A DNA stretch of 64,000 bases from contig NZ_JACHMM010000001.1 of NCBI RefSeq assembly GCF_014204975.1, positions 1,550,001 to 1,614,000 of the forward strand. Direction: 5' to 3'. The stretch is from Jiangella mangrovi (lineage in GTDB: Bacteria; Actinomycetota; Actinomycetes; Jiangellales; Jiangellaceae). A program made the position numbers and the translations under genes. How positions within the stretch are numbered: the stretch's first letter is position 1; each line of letters begins with the position of its first letter. Below, in pieces: positions 57,864 through 64,000 of this stretch. The notes beneath the pieces were generated by a model. That model was not told where the DNA came from. It ran no database searches and saw only the letters and a list, made by a program, of their open reading frames with translations.

Positions 57864-58299
57864 TCAGTCGACCGGAACCATCACGACCGGTTGAACCGGC
57901 CGGATGCTCGCCACCTCCGATGACGGTGGCTCGAGTCGGCAAGGCTCACGGTTGCCCGTGGGTGCCTCGCAGCCCTTCCGGTCTGCCGTCCGGCTCCGTC
58001 AGCCGCCCCGCGCATCGGAGTGCGGTTCGCCGGGTTGCCCCGACGTGGCGAACTGCCGTTATCCGTCCGGCCCGCCCTCGACTCCTTCGGCGCGTTTGGC
58101 CAGGTCACCCCGGCTTTCCGGCTCCGAACTCGTCGATGACGATGAGGTATTTCTAGTCCTGTCGTCAGAGCCGCACAAGAGGGTTTCACCAAGATTTTCT
58201 CCGTCGGCCGCCGCCCACAAGGATGTCCACAAGGTACTGAGCGCGAAGGGCCGCGTTACCCACACCCCTGTGCACAGAAACTGTGGACAACTTCGCGGA
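57864..58299. other. Non-coding stretch with DnaA-box-like sites
   Basis: No convincing reading frame. GTTCGCC and GGCGAAC form a small inverted repeat near 58023-58050. TGTGGACAA at 58282-58290 is a perfect complement of the actinobacterial DnaA box TTGTCCACA, and ATGTCCACA at 58223-58231 differs from it by one base. Confidence 0.4.
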
Positions 58300-61200
58300 T
58301 CACCGCCGGTTCAGTACCCGCGTGACGGCTGCGACGACGGTCGTGGCGAGCACCGCGCCGGAGAAGACCAGCCCGTAGGCGACCACCAGATCGAGGCCGC
58401 GGGGGTCCCAGGCGTTGTCCTGGCCGAGGCTGAGGATCGGGATGAGCAGGTCCAGCGTGTAGCCGATCGGGTTGAACGTGGGGTGGACGTTCACCTCGAC
58501 GGGGTCCAGCTCGCGGCCCCAGAAGTACGCAGTCCCGAACGCCAGCAGCCCGACGAACCAGATGGCGGCCAGGCCCGGCCGGTAGCCGAACCCGACGGTG
58601 ACGTCCTGCAGGTAGCCCCAGCCCTTCATCAGCAGCTGGCCCAGCGACGACGTTCCCAGCAGGTCGCGGCGGTGGCGGTGCCGGGCGAGCAGGACGGTGC
58701 GCGCGGCGGCGTCGTCGCCGGAGCGGCGGTAGTGGTTGGCCAGCTGCTCGTACACCTGGTGCTGGTAGCCGGTGGGGTCGCGGCGCAGCCACGCCAGCGC
58801 GGTCTCGACGTCGGCGTCGCCGGGGTCGTCGAAGGTCAGCCCCGACAGCATGACCATGGAGGTGTCAGTGGGGTCCATGACCAGCGTGCGGACCTCGGAG
58901 TCGCGCAGGTCGACGGCGATCTCGCCGGCCGGCAGCTCGACGGTGCCGGCCTGCATCTCGGACAGGTCGATGACCGCCCGCCGGCCGCGCGAGGTGGGCG
59001 CGGTCTCGATGCTGAGGTCGTTCATGAGCACCCGCCGGGCCACCACCGCCTCGTGCAGCGTGACCAGCGGCCGCACCTGCTCCGTCCCGCCCGGGCGCCC
59101 GGCCGCCGGCGGCTCCTGGCTGATCGAGACCTGCTCGCAGGAGAGCTCGCCGATGTTCGCGCGGTCGAGGCGGACGTCGCCGACGATGGTGAGCGGCCCG
59201 TTGCCGGTGGAGCGCCGCGAGCCCAGCTCGACCGCGCCGGACACCCGCAGGTTCGGCGCGAACACCGCGGTGCGGCCGGGGTTGCGCAGGGTCGTGCGGC
59301 CGCGGACCAGCAGCCGGCCCGCCAGCGCGGCCTCGGCCAGCGAGAGCTGCCCGGTCAGCTCGACGTCGCGGCACTCGAGGTTGCCCTCGACCTTGAGCCC
59401 GGCCGCCGCCACGACCTCCTCGACGGGCGTGCGGCCGTCGGCGCGGACGCCGGTCTCGCCGTGCAGCGCCGTCAGCACCACGCTGAACCCGACCTCGGCC
59501 CGCCGAAGCGCCATGCCGCCGGTGAGCTCGGCCTCGCGGACGACCAGCGAGCCGCCCACCGTGCTGCCGGCGACGTCGACGGCGAACCGCCCGGGGTGGC
59601 GGAAGCGGCCGCCGTCGACGATGAGGTCGCCGCCCACCCGCGAGCGCGCCACGATGACCGCGCCGTCGACGTCGAGCGCGGTCAGCCGGAACACCCCGCA
59701 GGTGACGTCGGGGAGCAGCAGCGCCGTCTGGCCGGGCGCGACGAACTCGCCGTGGCGCAGGCTGAGCCCGGCCGCGAACGTCGAGCCGGTGAGCCGCAGC
59801 GCGCCGCGGAAGACGCCGCCGTCGACCAGGAACTCGTCGGACATGGTCTGGATGGCGCTGAAGACGATGGGCCCGTCGGTGGACCCCACCCCGTGCCCGC
59901 TCAGCGTCGACGCGCTGAGCACGAAGCGGCGGCGCACGTGCGCCTGGTCGAACGAGACGGTGCCCTGGATCTCGGCCCGCTCGATGGACACCTTGCCGCC
60001 CACCTGCACGCCGGTACCGTCGAGCACCCGGTGGTCGGGCCGGCGCAGCACGGCGCCGTCGAGCACGAGGTCGCCGCCGACCTTGCCGTCGCGCATGACG
60101 ATGCCGCCGTCGGCCCAGAAGCCGCCGAGGTCGGACGAGTACGGGTCGTCGCCCACCACGAAGTCGCCGCGGACCTCGATGCGCGGCGCGATGAGCGCGT
60201 TGCCGTCGGGGTTGTAGATCTGCGCGCCGGTCAGCACGACGCTGTCGGCGACCGCAGCCGTCAGCCGCACGGCGCCGTCGCACACCATGCCGCGGGCGGT
60301 GAGCCGGCCGTCGACCCGCAGGCCGATGGCGTCGACGCCCATGCCGGAGGACTCGATGTAGGCGCCGCGCAACAGCACGTCGCTGCGCACACGTGCCTGG
60401 AACAGCCGGAGCTGGCCCTGGACGCGTGCGCCGTCCATGGCCAGGCTCTTGCCGAGGTCGGCGTGGGCGAGGTCGACGTCGCCGCGGCAGCGGAACCGGC
60501 GGCCCAGCACCAGCCGCTCACCGATGACGGCGCGCGACGCGGCCAGCGCGCGGTAGCCGCCGTCGAGGTGCGCCCCGCCCAGGAAGACCGCCGCGCCGAC
60601 CCGGATGCCCTTGATGTTCAGCCCGCCCATGGCCGTCAGCCGCTCGAGGTTGAGGTCGCGCCGCACCGTCGCCGACTGCAGGCTGACCGCCCAGGAGTCG
60701 TCCGGGTTGGTGACCCGGGTGCCGACCAGCCGCGCGGACGTCGCCTCGAGGTCATCGAGCATGACCCGGCCGACCAGGCGGGCGCGGTCGGCCACCAGCG
60801 ACCCGACAGCGGCGCCGATGCCGACCAGCGCGTAGCCGCCGGGGTTGCTGATCTCGACGCCGCGCAGCGCGAGGGTGTCGCGGACGACGCCGCGCGGGAT
60901 CAGCATGCGCCCGATGATGCGGGCGCCGTTCTCGACCTCGAGCCGGTCGGCCTCGATGTCGCTGGCCACCAGCGCGTCTCCGCCCGGGTTGGCCAGCACC
61001 GCGGCGTCGAACACGACGCTGCCGGCGATGGTGGCGTGCCCGAGGTCGACGGTGCCGCTGCAGCGCAGCCCGTGGCCCTGGACGCCGCCCGCGACCAGCC
61101 GACGGGCGTCGAGGGCGACGCCGTGGCGGTTGCGCAGGACGGCGTCGGTGAGGTCGACCCGGCCGGACACCGTCGCGCCGGACAGCACGATGGGTCCGCG

Positions 61201-61845
61201 GGCCCGGGCGCCGACCAGGCCCAGCCCGCCGTCGACGCGCAGCCGCTCGGCGTTGACCGCCTCGCCCGACGCGGCGAACAGCCGGGCGCGGGTGAGCAGG
61301 AGGTCGCCGCCGACACTGAGGTTGCGCGCGTGCACGAGCGTGGCGTGCCCGGTGAACCGGCTGTCCTCGAACGACGCCGACCGGTGCACGTGGGTGTCGA
61401 CCATGCTGACCGAGCCGACCAGGCACTCGCGGACGGCGATGGCGTTCTGCACGTCGACGGACTCGGTGCGCAGGTCCGGCACGCGGCAGCGGATCAGCTC
61501 GACGCCGGCCGCCGTCAGCTCGGCCAGCATGAGGATGTCGTCGATCCAGCACATGTCCAGCCGCAGCGGGCGCTCGAGACGGCCGTAGCGCAGCTGCAGC
61601 CCGCCGGTGATGCGGGCGCCGGTGAGCCGGACGGCGGCGCCGGGCACGCCGCCGGTGTCGCGCAGCAGCTCGTCGATGACCTTGGCCCGGACGGTGCGCG
61701 CCTCGTCCCAGGCATCGGCGGACTCGACGGAGCGGGGATCGATGTCGCGCCCGAGGTCCGCCTCGCCGCCCCGCGCCACGGCCGACCGCAGCGCCGACTC
61801 GGCACGGCTGAGCCTGTCGCGCACCCTGCCTCCTGGTCCGGCCAT
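58300..61845 (-). CDS. Giant repeat-rich (beta-helix-like) protein with C-terminal membrane helices
   Basis: This 1181-residue protein runs mostly as short alternating strands ending in G, with a period near 20 residues, for example LRVDGGLGLVGARARGPIVL, ANPGGDALVASDIEADRLEV and VGGDLVLDGAVL. This points to a long right-handed parallel beta-helix like those of polymer-forming or pentapeptide-like proteins. Near residue 1050 a helical segment (YQHQVYEQLANHYRRSGDDA) follows, then three helices (LAAIWFVGLLAFGTAYF, IGYTLDLLIPILSLG, LVVAYGLVFSGAVLATTVVA). Streptomyces relatives are, as I recall, called membrane-associated oxidoreductases without proof. I prefer the ATG at 61845 (AGGGG upstream) to the TTG at 61872. 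Confidence 0.8.
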   Translation of the reverse strand: MAGPGGRVRDRLSRAESALRSAVARGGEADLGRDIDPRSVESADAWDEARTVRAKVIDELLRDTGGVPGAAVRLTGARITGGLQLRYGRLERPLRLDMCWIDDILMLAELTAAGVELIRCRVPDLRTESVDVQNAIAVRECLVGSVSMVDTHVHRSASFEDSRFTGHATLVHARNLSVGGDLLLTRARLFAASGEAVNAERLRVDGGLGLVGARARGPIVLSGATVSGRVDLTDAVLRNRHGVALDARRLVAGGVQGHGLRCSGTVDLGHATIAGSVVFDAAVLANPGGDALVASDIEADRLEVENGARIIGRMLIPRGVVRDTLALRGVEISNPGGYALVGIGAAVGSLVADRARLVGRVMLDDLEATSARLVGTRVTNPDDSWAVSLQSATVRRDLNLERLTAMGGLNIKGIRVGAAVFLGGAHLDGGYRALAASRAVIGERLVLGRRFRCRGDVDLAHADLGKSLAMDGARVQGQLRLFQARVRSDVLLRGAYIESSGMGVDAIGLRVDGRLTARGMVCDGAVRLTAAVADSVVLTGAQIYNPDGNALIAPRIEVRGDFVVGDDPYSSDLGGFWADGGIVMRDGKVGGDLVLDGAVLRRPDHRVLDGTGVQVGGKVSIERAEIQGTVSFDQAHVRRRFVLSASTLSGHGVGSTDGPIVFSAIQTMSDEFLVDGGVFRGALRLTGSTFAAGLSLRHGEFVAPGQTALLLPDVTCGVFRLTALDVDGAVIVARSRVGGDLIVDGGRFRHPGRFAVDVAGSTVGGSLVVREAELTGGMALRRAEVGFSVVLTALHGETGVRADGRTPVEEVVAAAGLKVEGNLECRDVELTGQLSLAEAALAGRLLVRGRTTLRNPGRTAVFAPNLRVSGAVELGSRRSTGNGPLTIVGDVRLDRANIGELSCEQVSISQEPPAAGRPGGTEQVRPLVTLHEAVVARRVLMNDLSIETAPTSRGRRAVIDLSEMQAGTVELPAGEIAVDLRDSEVRTLVMDPTDTSMVMLSGLTFDDPGDADVETALAWLRRDPTGYQHQVYEQLANHYRRSGDDAAARTVLLARHRHRRDLLGTSSLGQLLMKGWGYLQDVTVGFGYRPGLAAIWFVGLLAFGTAYFWGRELDPVEVNVHPTFNPIGYTLDLLIPILSLGQDNAWDPRGLDLVVAYGLVFSGAVLATTVVAAVTRVLNRR

Positions 61846-61872
61846 CTCACCCCTGCCGTTCTCGGTGATCAA

Positions 61873-62248
61873 TGTAACGGGTGAGGCATTGCGGACGTTT
61901 GGGGATCGACCAACTCGAATCGATCCCGGCGATACGCCGTGTCGTTACGCACCGTTCATCCGCGGATGCGATAAGAATCGTGAAGACCCCTCGGGGTAAG
62001 GGTCCGAGGGGTCTTCTACCTGCACGTACACCGGCACAGACGGGTCGATACGGTCCGTGACCCACAGGTTGTGGATCAGTTGTGGAAACCCGCGCCGAAC
62101 CGTGACAAACGATGCACCGCACGGTCAACGACATCTCGCCTGTCGGGCGGCGCACGCCACACTCACTCGCTCCGAGTCCCTCACGCTCTCGACCGACGAC
62201 TCGTGGGTGCCTCCGGCCCCAGTCGCCGCCGGTGTGCGCCGCCCTCCA
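61873..62248. other. Non-coding stretch between the beta-helix gene and the META-domain gene
   Basis: It holds the second GTAAGGG hairpin (61982-62016) and two TGTGGA-type repeats at 62070-62078 (TGTGGATCA) and 62082-62088. No reading frame here shows protein-like features. Confidence 0.45.
61982..62016. terminator. GTAAGGG-loop hairpin, right copy
   Basis: A 13-bp stem (GAAGACCCCTCGG at 61982-61994 with its complement at 62004-62016) encloses a loop containing GTAAGGG. It matches the hairpin at 57829-57863 except for compensated changes in the stem, so the structure is conserved rather than just the letters. Confidence 0.65.
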
Positions 62249-63052
62249 TCAGGCCGCCGCCACCGCCTGCAGTCCGAACCCGCTGGGCGCCTCGAGCGAG
62301 AGCCGGTTGCCGGTGATCTCGAACCGCGCCTCGCCGGTGAGCACCTGCAGCACGATGTCCTGCACGTAGGCGGCGCCGTCGGCGCAGGCGGCGTCGCTCA
62401 CCACGATGTCGGCGAACGTGACGGCGTCGCCGTCGACGGTGGCCGTGCCGCTGAGCTCGTTGCAGCCGGTGTGCCCGGTGACGGCGCCGTCGTCGAAGCG
62501 CAGGTGAGCGGCGAATCCGGCCGGCATGGACGAGGCCACCTCACCGTCAGTGAGGCCGTCGACGTCCCACTGACGCCCGGTCAGCTCGACCGGCGGCTCG
62601 ACCACCTCGAGGTCGGTCAGCGAGATCACGAGTTCCCCCGCGGTGAGCACGAACGTGTTCGCGTCGGCGAGCTCCCAGGTGGGCTCCGCGGCCAGCAGGT
62701 CACTGAGCCACTGGTCGGCGTCCATGCGCTCGCCCGGGCAGCCCATCTCGGTCATGGCGAGGCCGCCGCCGGTGCCGAGCCGGCCGCCGTCGAGCGACAC
62801 CGGCCCGTTGGCGCTGTTGCAGCCCGCCGAGGCCAGCAGCCGCCCGTCGTCGGTGAACTGCAGGTTCAGCGGGCCGCCGCCCGGGATGCCGACGTCCTCG
62901 GTGGAGACGAACGTGCGCCCGGCGAGGGCTCCGGAGTCGCCACCGCCCGTGGCGCCGGAGCCGTCGCCGTCGTCGCCCGCCGCGGTGTCGCCGCAGCCGG
63001 CCAGGAACAGCACGACGCCCAGCAGCGGGAGGAGGGCTGCTGGGCGTCGCAT
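62249..63052 (-). CDS. Lipoprotein with two META (HslJ-like) domains
   Basis: This 267-residue exported protein has lipobox VVLFLAGCGD (Cys near 20) and a Gly/Asp linker. Two META domains follow: LAGRTFVSTEDVGIPGGG with GCNSANGPVSL and TEMGCPGERMD, then LTGRQWDVDGLTDGEV with GHTGCNELSGTATV. The GCN motif and later Cys can form the disulfide usual for this fold. META proteins are stress-linked in other bacteria, but their molecular role is unclear. It starts one base after the stop of the single-META gene upstream and is co-transcribed with it. Confidence 0.9.
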   Translation of the reverse strand: MRRPAALLPLLGVVLFLAGCGDTAAGDDGDGSGATGGGDSGALAGRTFVSTEDVGIPGGGPLNLQFTDDGRLLASAGCNSANGPVSLDGGRLGTGGGLAMTEMGCPGERMDADQWLSDLLAAEPTWELADANTFVLTAGELVISLTDLEVVEPPVELTGRQWDVDGLTDGEVASSMPAGFAAHLRFDDGAVTGHTGCNELSGTATVDGDAVTFADIVVSDAACADGAAYVQDIVLQVLTGEARFEITGNRLSLEAPSGFGLQAVAAA

Positions 63053-63053
63053 G

Positions 63054-63560
63054 TCAGCCGAGGTCCGTGGACGGGGCGTCGGACGCCGTCAGGCTGAGGG
63101 TGTCGCCCTCGGCGTTGGTGACCGTGAGCACGTCGCCCGCGACCTCGACGGTGACGTCGCCGTTGAGCACCTGCAGCATCGAGGAGTCGATCTTGCCGAG
63201 CTCGCCCGAGCAGCCGCGGCGGGTGGAGATGAGCGGCGTGAAGCTGATGCTGGAGTCGCTCACCTCGGCCGACCCGCTGAAGCCGTTGCAGCCGGTGGAG
63301 CCGGTGACGTCGCCGTTCTCGTCGATCTGGAAGTAGGCGTCGGCGTCGGCCGGGCGCTCGACCGTCGCGCCCTGGGCCGTCACCTCGTCGAGCACCCAGC
63401 GGCTGCCGACGATCGGCACACCCGGCTCGGTGGAGCTGTCGGATTCAGAGGAGTCGCCGGGGACCGCGGTGGTGTCGTCGCCGGCGTCTTCGCTGCCACA
63501 GGCGGCCAGCAGCGCGATGCCGGCCACCGCGGCGAGAGTTCCTAGTCGTCGCATATCCAT
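63054..63560 (-). CDS. Single META-domain lipoprotein
   Basis: This 168-residue exported protein has lipobox GIALLAACGS (Cys near 21), an acidic Ser/Asp/Glu linker, and one META domain: VGSRWVLDEVTAQGATVE, GSTGCNGFSGSAEV and STRRGCSGELGKIDSSML. ATGs at 63560 and 63554 are both possible starts. It forms a two-gene unit with the double-META gene, probably by partial duplication. A separate gene runs away from it on the + strand from 63662. Confidence 0.9.
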   Translation of the reverse strand: MDMRRLGTLAAVAGIALLAACGSEDAGDDTTAVPGDSSESDSSTEPGVPIVGSRWVLDEVTAQGATVERPADADAYFQIDENGDVTGSTGCNGFSGSAEVSDSSISFTPLISTRRGCSGELGKIDSSMLQVLNGDVTVEVAGDVLTVTNAEGDTLSLTASDAPSTDLG

Positions 63561-63661
63561 GGGACGGACGCGGGCCGCCGGGCGTTCCTGGGTTGCGCGA
63601 AGTTACCGACTAGTAGCACCATGGAGTTACTCGCCGGTAGTAATTGCGACGGAGGATCCCG

Positions 63662-64000
63662 ATGGGCCACTACAAGTCCAACCTGCGCGACATCGAGTTC
63701 GCGTTGTTCGACGTCTTCGGCAGCGGCGAGCAGCTGGGCGGCGGACGCTACGCGGAGTTCGACACCGACACGGTGCGCAGCATCCTCGCCGAGGTCGACC
63801 GCATGAGCCGCGAGGACCTCGCCGCGTCGTACACCGACTCCGACCGCCACCCGCCGGTCTACGACGCCGCCGAGCGCTCCGTCGTGCTGCCCGAGTCGTT
63901 CAAGAAGAGCTTCGCCACGCTCATGGACTCCGAGTTGTGGCGCTTCGCGCTGCCCGAGGGCCTCGGCGGCACGCCGCTGCCGCCGTCGGTCTTCTGGGGC
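63662..64000 (+). CDS. Acyl-CoA dehydrogenase, N-terminal part (3' end cut)
   Basis: This frame opens at the ATG at 63662, after GGAGG, and stays open to the window edge (113 codons). The start GHYKSNLRDIEFALFDVFGS, then YAEFDTDTVRSILAEVDRMS and VVLPESFKKSFATLMDSELW match the N-terminal helical region of the larger acyl-CoA dehydrogenases that begin HYKSNLRD. The FAD-binding and catalytic regions lie outside the window. It would oxidise an acyl-CoA thioester in fatty-acid or related breakdown. Confidence 0.82.
   Translation, partial: MGHYKSNLRDIEFALFDVFGSGEQLGGGRYAEFDTDTVRSILAEVDRMSREDLAASYTDSDRHPPVYDAAERSVVLPESFKKSFATLMDSELWRFALPEGLGGTPLPPSVFWG

Follow-up and report, generated by a model that had tools for sequence, protein, structure and literature searches.

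The stretch of DNA analysed here ("the window") comprises 64,000 nucleotides of the Jiangella mangrovi genome (contig NZ_JACHMM010000001.1, positions 1,550,001 to 1,614,000 of the forward strand) and carries a gene for a protein of 1181 residues. An original prediction made from the letters of the sequence had described this protein as a large repeat solenoid tethered to the inner membrane. The frame is a real gene on the minus strand; a purine-rich stretch, GGGGTGAG, lies directly 5' of its ATG at 61845. The gene is present in a single copy in the source genome, and the protein was matched in all 11 same-genus genomes and in eight of ten other same-family genomes, the two without a match being 81% and 75% complete. 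Named relatives at 74-96% identity belong to Jiangella and Haloactinopolyspora.

We compared the ratio of nonsynonymous to synonymous substitution rates (dN/dS) in seven pairs, using seven of eight loci (the frame is broken in the eighth, L035, which was also left out of alignments A2 and A3). dN/dS was 0.12-0.26 for residues 1-70 (the N-terminal cap), 0.19-0.38 for residues 71-985 (the solenoid) and 0.08-0.20 for residues 986-1181 (the C-terminal domain, CTD), and the value for the CTD was lower than that for the solenoid in 7/7 pairs and lower than that for the cap in 6/7. This shows purifying selection on all three protein regions. A longer ORF overlaps the gene on the plus strand, antisense to it (57904-61884 (+), 1326 aa); we take the plus-strand ORF to be a high-GC shadow of the minus-strand gene, since it is the minus-strand protein that has matches across the family and is under purifying selection. 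In Jiangella ureilytica (L035, 3757-7298), the orthologue is broken across two frames near residue 883, which is either a draft-assembly error or a genuine frame break. The gene contains no tandem repeat at the DNA level.

AlphaFold2, supplied with the window protein and seven relatives, returned a beta-helix in which the 10-residue mean of the predicted local distance difference test (pLDDT) was mostly >90 over residues 170-870, with dips to 64-65 at residues 651-660 and 801-810 and values of 47-90 in the parts flanking 170-870. Helices were modelled at the N terminus, at the C terminus and, with low confidence, at residues 104-112, and nowhere else. Thus, the glycine-containing repeat solenoid that had been proposed is borne out, at about 900 residues (13% Gly) instead of the roughly 1000 first given. 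The model contains no globular enzymatic fold, and neither Pfam nor NCBIfam detected an enzyme domain in the protein.

The repeats have their own periods. Compared with shuffled sequences, hydrophobic periodicity gave z 6.6-7.6 at lag 11, z 1.8-4.1 at lags 5-6 and z 2.6-4.3 at lags 47-48, and NPGG-type loops at residues 239, 286, 334 and 380 mark out a super-repeat of 46-48 residues; beyond residue 380, such loops are irregularly placed. A regular pentapeptide period was not found in a test run on this protein alone, in which z was 3.4 at lag 5 but -1.8, -1.6 and -0.7 at lags 10, 15 and 20, and 7.6 at lag 11. The whole protein scored 48.2 bits against Pfam Pentapeptide_3 (PF13576) over two stretches, above the cut-off of 27; this gene, whose individual stretches are weak, was missing from the results of a genome-wide PF13576 search, and membership in Pentapeptide_3 is reached only as the sum of these stretches. 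The only place listed by the genome-wide search lies in another gene (G000:C1:2942124-2942240, L129; 28.7 bits). The protein shares a whole-protein Pentapeptide_3 score above the cut-off with pentapeptide repeat proteins such as QnrB1, MfpA and HetL, and differs from them in its periods of 11 and 47-48, its far greater length and its membrane-associated CTD.

A Foldseek search gave no match at E <= 0.001, the top row being QnrB1 (E 0.015). When the Foldseek list itself was re-examined with VIA-align, the 50 matches listed had Z 16.7-24.6, and nearly all are beta-helix proteins, judging by their titles. The best rows listed were tailspike and autotransporter beta-helices, including Vag8 (Z 24.6 over 358 residues, root-mean-square deviation (rmsd) 3.8) and the Sf6 tailspike (Z 23.2, 325 residues, rmsd 3.5); HetL gave Z 17.8 over 230 residues with rmsd 3.0. 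The tailspike and autotransporter proteins are secreted or part of virions, are 10-16% identical to the window protein in these rows and share the fold alone. In total, the VIA-align and Foldseek likenesses reflect a common fold and not a common function. Sequence searches of solved structures gave nothing usable (2xt2, E 0.82; two others, E 0.38 and 0.55).

The beta-helix fold of the model bears on the earlier suggestion of a bactofilin-like device, in which solenoids would stack end to end as membrane filaments. Bactofilins (PF04519) resemble the protein in combining a beta-helix with membrane association (available text of PMC12448750), there is a weak Pfam Bactofilin match (E 0.0011), and the split-off solenoid of one relative, L103, is annotated as a "polymer-forming cytoskeletal protein". 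However, that solenoid itself scores 16.8 against Pfam Bactofilin, below the cut-off, and so does the window protein, at 19.6 bits against a cut-off of 27.9; a genome-wide PF04519 search returned nothing at E <= 0.001, and membership in the bactofilins is not upheld. Moreover, where a bactofilin is a single domain of ~100 residues, here other domains, the N-terminal cap and the C-terminal membrane hairpin, occupy both ends of the beta-helix, and relatives vary widely in length, the open frames that fall entirely within the fetched DNA ranging from 496 to 1216 aa. No bactofilin is among the 50 VIA-align matches listed, which excludes nothing. We regard such a polymer as decidedly unlikely.

The CTD contains two strongly hydrophobic segments (~1091-1110 and 1151-1178) separated by a middle segment (~1124-1148) in which no 19-residue hydropathy window exceeds 1.2. 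Similarly, no such window was found before residue 100, in agreement with the earlier statement that the protein has no signal peptide. In 52 CTD sequences, the mean net charge was +5.1 before transmembrane helix 1 (TM1), -2.8 in the loop and +2.5 in the tail after transmembrane helix 2 (TM2), and the charge before TM1 exceeded that of the loop in 52/52 sequences, many of which are close relatives. This pattern fits a two-helix hairpin with both ends in the cytoplasm, and thus an even number of crossings. Because the middle segment is weakly hydrophobic and the charges call for an even number of crossings, we correct the three membrane helices of the original prediction to two; given the hairpin with both ends cytoplasmic, the most likely place for the supposed third helix is in or on the outer face, where this middle segment, which carries a conserved Asp, Pro and Gln, would probably be interfacial or re-entrant. 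The proposed tethering of the solenoid to the inner membrane is kept, with the solenoid most likely in the cytoplasm, as suggested by the lack of a visible signal peptide and by the positive charges before TM1 and in the tail.

The CTD is also the part of the protein that carries furthest among relatives. Identical CTDs were dropped, as were L001 and L039, both copies of the window protein. In a 23-sequence alignment (A1), 18 columns are invariant, including D1132, P1136 and Q1142 (23/23 each; alignment columns converted to residue numbers). A set of motifs (YEQLA-like, GYRP-like, LD..LP, Q, then TM2) is present in the window protein, and single positions of it differ in the most distant rows (L060, L062, L067 and L068). 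No Pfam family exceeds its cut-off over the CTD of the window protein, and the 23 members give weak, scattered matches: MS_channel_1st_1 in four (best E 0.013), TPR_14 in four (best E 0.051, below the cut-off) and DUF7372 in one (E 0.00067). The Foldseek list obtained with a CTD-only model consists mostly of TPR proteins, all with E >1, and is not interpretable. By eye, a stretch comparable to the N-terminal cap is present in proteins from Streptomyces, Rhodococcus, Rhizobium and Acaryochloris.

The order helix, short helix, helix, with the middle segment where a pore helix would be, recalls a two-helix pore-loop ion channel, a relative of K+ channels, that would be gated by the solenoid. We consider this extremely improbable. 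In a profile comparison (hhalign) involving 29 Ion_trans_2 sequences (29 of 30; L090 was left out, its fetched stretch being too short), the probability was 1.5-1.7% with only TM2 aligned, and controls gave 0.3-0.4% with one profile reversed and 2.2-2.5% with both reversed; K+-channel homology of the CTD is not supported by this comparison. Moreover, Ion_trans_2 (PF07885) is not among the families listed for the 23 CTDs, and the loop reads LGQ...W, not the GYG of a selectivity filter.

Altogether, an architecture of N-terminal cap, long cytoplasmic beta-helix, TPR-like hairpin and two-helix membrane hairpin with a conserved polar middle segment is well supported as a prediction: by the sequence, by the structural model as regards the solenoid and by the charge pattern as regards the topology. 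Within it, the position of the middle segment on the outer face is inferred. The features are collected in Table 1.

Table 1. Features of the 1181-residue protein and its upstream neighbours in the window.
Feature	Residues	Position	Strand	Basis and remarks
Whole gene	1-1181	58300..61845	minus	ATG start at 61845; start region common to relatives
N-terminal cap	1-70	61636..61845	minus	predicted helices 4-25 and 43-60; low pLDDT (AlphaFold2)
Beta-helix solenoid	~71-990	58876..61635	minus	AlphaFold2; periodicity; Pfam Pentapeptide_3; VIA-align
Alpha-helical hairpin	1013-1062	58660..58809	minus	YEQLA...AR.VLLA..R.RR-type motif; weakly TPR-like
Pre-membrane helix	1068-1090	58576..58644	minus	WGYLQD.TVG(F/Y)GYRP-type motif
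Transmembrane helix 1	1091-1110	58516..58575	minus	hydropathy; AlphaFold2 helix 1090-1108
Middle segment	1124-1148	58402..58476	minus	predicted short helix 1126-1139; D1132, P1136, Q1142
Transmembrane helix 2	1151-1178	58312..58395	minus	hydropathy; AlphaFold2 helix 1151-1180; positive tail after
META-domain protein, two META matches		62249..63052	minus	first gene upstream; lipoprotein-like start by eye; Pfam; linkage
Second META-domain protein		63054..63560	minus	lipoprotein-like start by eye; Pfam; linkage

Five neighbours of the gene in the window were run through Pfam and yielded META, META, GNAT and FtsX, with no match for 63644-64000. The two META-domain genes stand in tandem immediately upstream of the gene. 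In the Jiangellaceae, a META-domain gene lies on the same strand, 60-776 bases away, in 19/19 loci (L002-L020); it precedes the family gene in 13 of these and follows it in six. The META linkage is thus kept across genera of the Jiangellaceae though the gene order changed, and the gene is syntenic.

Beyond this family, a phylum-wide set of 396 genomes gave CTD matches in 13, i.e. the source genome, one genome of another family and 11 of one genus, taken to be Streptomyces. In a CTD tree, the Jiangellaceae form one clade (100/100), separate from two main Streptomyces clades. Relatives on plasmids occur in actinobacteria (Streptomyces, Rhodococcus, Nonomuraea and Embleya) and in Sinorhizobium, Rhizobium, Mesorhizobium, Shinella, Roseomonas, Microvirga and Acaryochloris, and family members are thereby found in Actinomycetota, Pseudomonadota and Cyanobacteriota. 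Scanning viral contigs with the CTD profile yielded no confirmed relative. In three plasmid relatives (L061, L067 and L103), the gene is broken in two, one ORF encoding the solenoid and the other containing the CTD; in L103, ~385 bases separate them, and this gap hints that the solenoid and CTD halves can be separate proteins.

Several relatives are annotated as "oxidoreductase" or "membrane-associated oxidoreductase". No oxidoreductase domain was detected in the window protein with Pfam or NCBIfam or in the Streptomyces protein P0006 with Pfam; the name is backed by no detected domain, and the family appears from its sequences to be often misnamed. In the open-licence literature, we found no paper on the function of "membrane-associated oxidoreductase" proteins, SCO6657 or SCO2055-2057, and the family is apparently unstudied.

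We examined the Streptomyces-type neighbourhoods (genus inferred) by tblastn on all 20 loci. The family gene is divergent from hisD, followed by LON-domain and tRNA-editing genes, in 11 of the 20, comes after gnd in four and has neither gene beside it in five. Within the hisD clade (L110-L127), a co-directional run comprises the family gene, a TPR gene (9/11), a gene for a LON substrate-binding domain and a tRNA-editing-domain gene. In the four gnd loci, the family gene and gnd share a strand and are at most 5.6 kb apart; they are directly adjacent in L113 and L117, and one or two genes separate them in L121 and L111. In addition, pgi is present in the three loci whose stretch reaches that far. 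In the available text of PMC6302529, SCO6657, probably a family member judging solely by position and name, appears alongside a pentose-phosphate isoenzyme cluster. Together with the hisD neighbours, these observations could indicate a tether for metabolic enzymes, i.e. a pentose-phosphate or histidine scaffold, or else a true oxidoreductase as annotated. Such a role is highly unlikely: neither the window protein nor P0006 has an oxidoreductase domain, the change in SCO6657 expression given in the available text of the same source was not significant (log2 0.32, p 0.39), and there are no gnd- or hisD-type genes among the Jiangella neighbours tested.

The hisD-divergent clade connects the family to Streptomyces coelicolor, in which hisD is SCO2054 and shares a bidirectional promoter region with SCO2055, according to the available text of PMC3293853. 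A stretch of 26 bases from the published SCO2055 promoter recurs ahead of the family gene in L118, which makes SCO2055, by position and promoter match, a very probable member of the family. Streptomyces proteins annotated as oxidoreductases (the SCO2055 and probably the SCO6657 types) resemble the window protein in their N-terminal cap, beta-helix and NPGG-type loops (by eye) and have the same CTD at ~40-48% identity, and differ in being about half as long and in their genome context. SCO2055 appears in Table 1 of a study of sigma-E (envelope stress) by chromatin immunoprecipitation (ChIP) sequencing (available text of PMC6767563), and a strict sigma-E-like pattern was found at 3/11 hisD-clade loci (raw count). 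A sigma-70 scan, of a kind unsuited to this organism, gave no promoter.

Among 17 annotated plasmid loci (the unannotated L064 and L069 were left out), three lie <2 kb from caspase, trypsin-like or Trypco1 genes. Two small genes separate the Sinorhizobium relative from a caspase-family gene 1.5 kb upstream; the Acaryochloris relative, a split gene, has Trypco1 as its immediate upstream neighbour and, 1.8 kb downstream and past a transposase, a caspase-family gene; and the Mesorhizobium relative is directly downstream of the gene for a Trypsin_2 and Exo_endo_phos protein. Moreover, in L101 the family gene and an S8 peptidase gene are arranged divergently. Conflict systems have been described as including trypsin, caspase, Trypco and pentapeptide parts, as far as the available texts of PMC7159879 and PMC8195603 go. 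These neighbours, the polar residues conserved in the membrane hairpin and the weak MS_channel_1st_1 matches (4/23 CTDs) would be in line with a membrane effector of cell death or defence, in which the solenoid would be acted on by peptidases or by a signal and the two-helix CTD would open or oligomerise so as to damage the membrane. However, conflict-type neighbours occur at only those 3/17 loci (raw count), the gene is single-copy and syntenic in the Jiangellaceae, unlike a patchy defence island, and the pore is an assumption that is absent from the structural model. Moreover, Pfam showed no caspase, trypsin-like or Trypco gene among the five neighbours searched in the window. We therefore judge an effector of this kind to be unlikely.

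The other plasmid loci show varied surroundings. In two linear Streptomyces plasmids (L102 and L103), the family gene is just upstream of parA-parB; in Rhizobium sp. SL42 (L065) and Shinella (L066), it is among Na+/H+ antiporter or efflux and glycine-zipper genes; and in L101, L104 and L108, the copies are 5-18 kb from the end of a linear plasmid. By eye, the remaining plasmid loci have no common neighbour, Na+/H+ antiporter genes near two aside.

Sigma-E binding at the promoter of the S. coelicolor relative and the META linkage in the Jiangellaceae together suggest a role at the envelope. On this basis, we tentatively favour, at somewhat less than even confidence, that the protein is a membrane-tethered scaffold or adaptor at the cytosolic face, not an enzyme, that acts in envelope maintenance or the stress response. 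The solenoid would provide an extended binding platform at the inner face of the membrane, and the conserved CTD would position the solenoid, probably oligomerise it and couple it to the envelope side. The word scaffold is a fair guess for this protein. The original prediction, as an account of the protein, is partly confirmed and holds with the corrections above, and its interpretation is partly supported.

Several observations weigh against this scaffold reading. The META linkage was measured as a distance and not as direct adjacency at each locus, and other relatives lie near unrelated genes (parAB and genes for pentose-phosphate enzymes, Na+/H+ antiporters, caspase and trypsin-like proteins). 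The strict sigma-E-like pattern is absent from 8/11 hisD-clade loci (raw count), occurs once outside that clade (L128; 1/9 other Streptomyces-type loci) and is found in 0/12 Jiangellaceae upstream regions, that of the window gene included; with counts of 3/11, 1/9 and 0/12, conserved sigma-E control is not established. Moreover, the sigma-E table, in the available text of PMC6767563, gives ChIP binding and a predicted promoter and no phenotype, and the hisD-SCO2055 promoter region is also an ArgR target (available texts of PMC3293853 and PMC5839063). The CTD is poorly modelled, with pLDDT <50 in the full-length AlphaFold2 model and a mean pLDDT of 52 when the CTD alone was modelled from eight sequences, and for this reason oligomerisation and the re-entrant segment are tentative. 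In a wider alignment of which 19 rows were printed, P1136 is kept in 19/19 rows, D1132 in 17/19 and Q1142 in 16/19, by eye. Finally, two rhizobial relatives (L060 and L068) have apparent signal peptides, by eye, and a weaker charge bias; because of these two features, their solenoids may face the periplasm and their topology may differ.

A broader and more speculative version would make the family a pan-bacterial set of solenoid-controlled membrane devices, in which a cytosolic beta-helix sensor of variable length drives a conserved two-helix hairpin, with a conserved Asp-Pro-Gln re-entrant segment, that opens or assembles in the membrane. Such devices would serve envelope stress in actinobacteria and would have been recruited to caspase- or trypsin-linked cell death in rhizobia and cyanobacteria; we think it decidedly unlikely that all of this holds.

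For the family, the finding is that a conserved membrane domain without a convincing Pfam family ends beta-helix proteins in three phyla. By way of the hisD-divergent clade, SCO2055 and sigma-E, the family gains an initial role that can be tested in a laboratory organism. Should the CTD turn out to act as an oligomeric membrane device, it would represent a new kind of solenoid-coupled membrane module.

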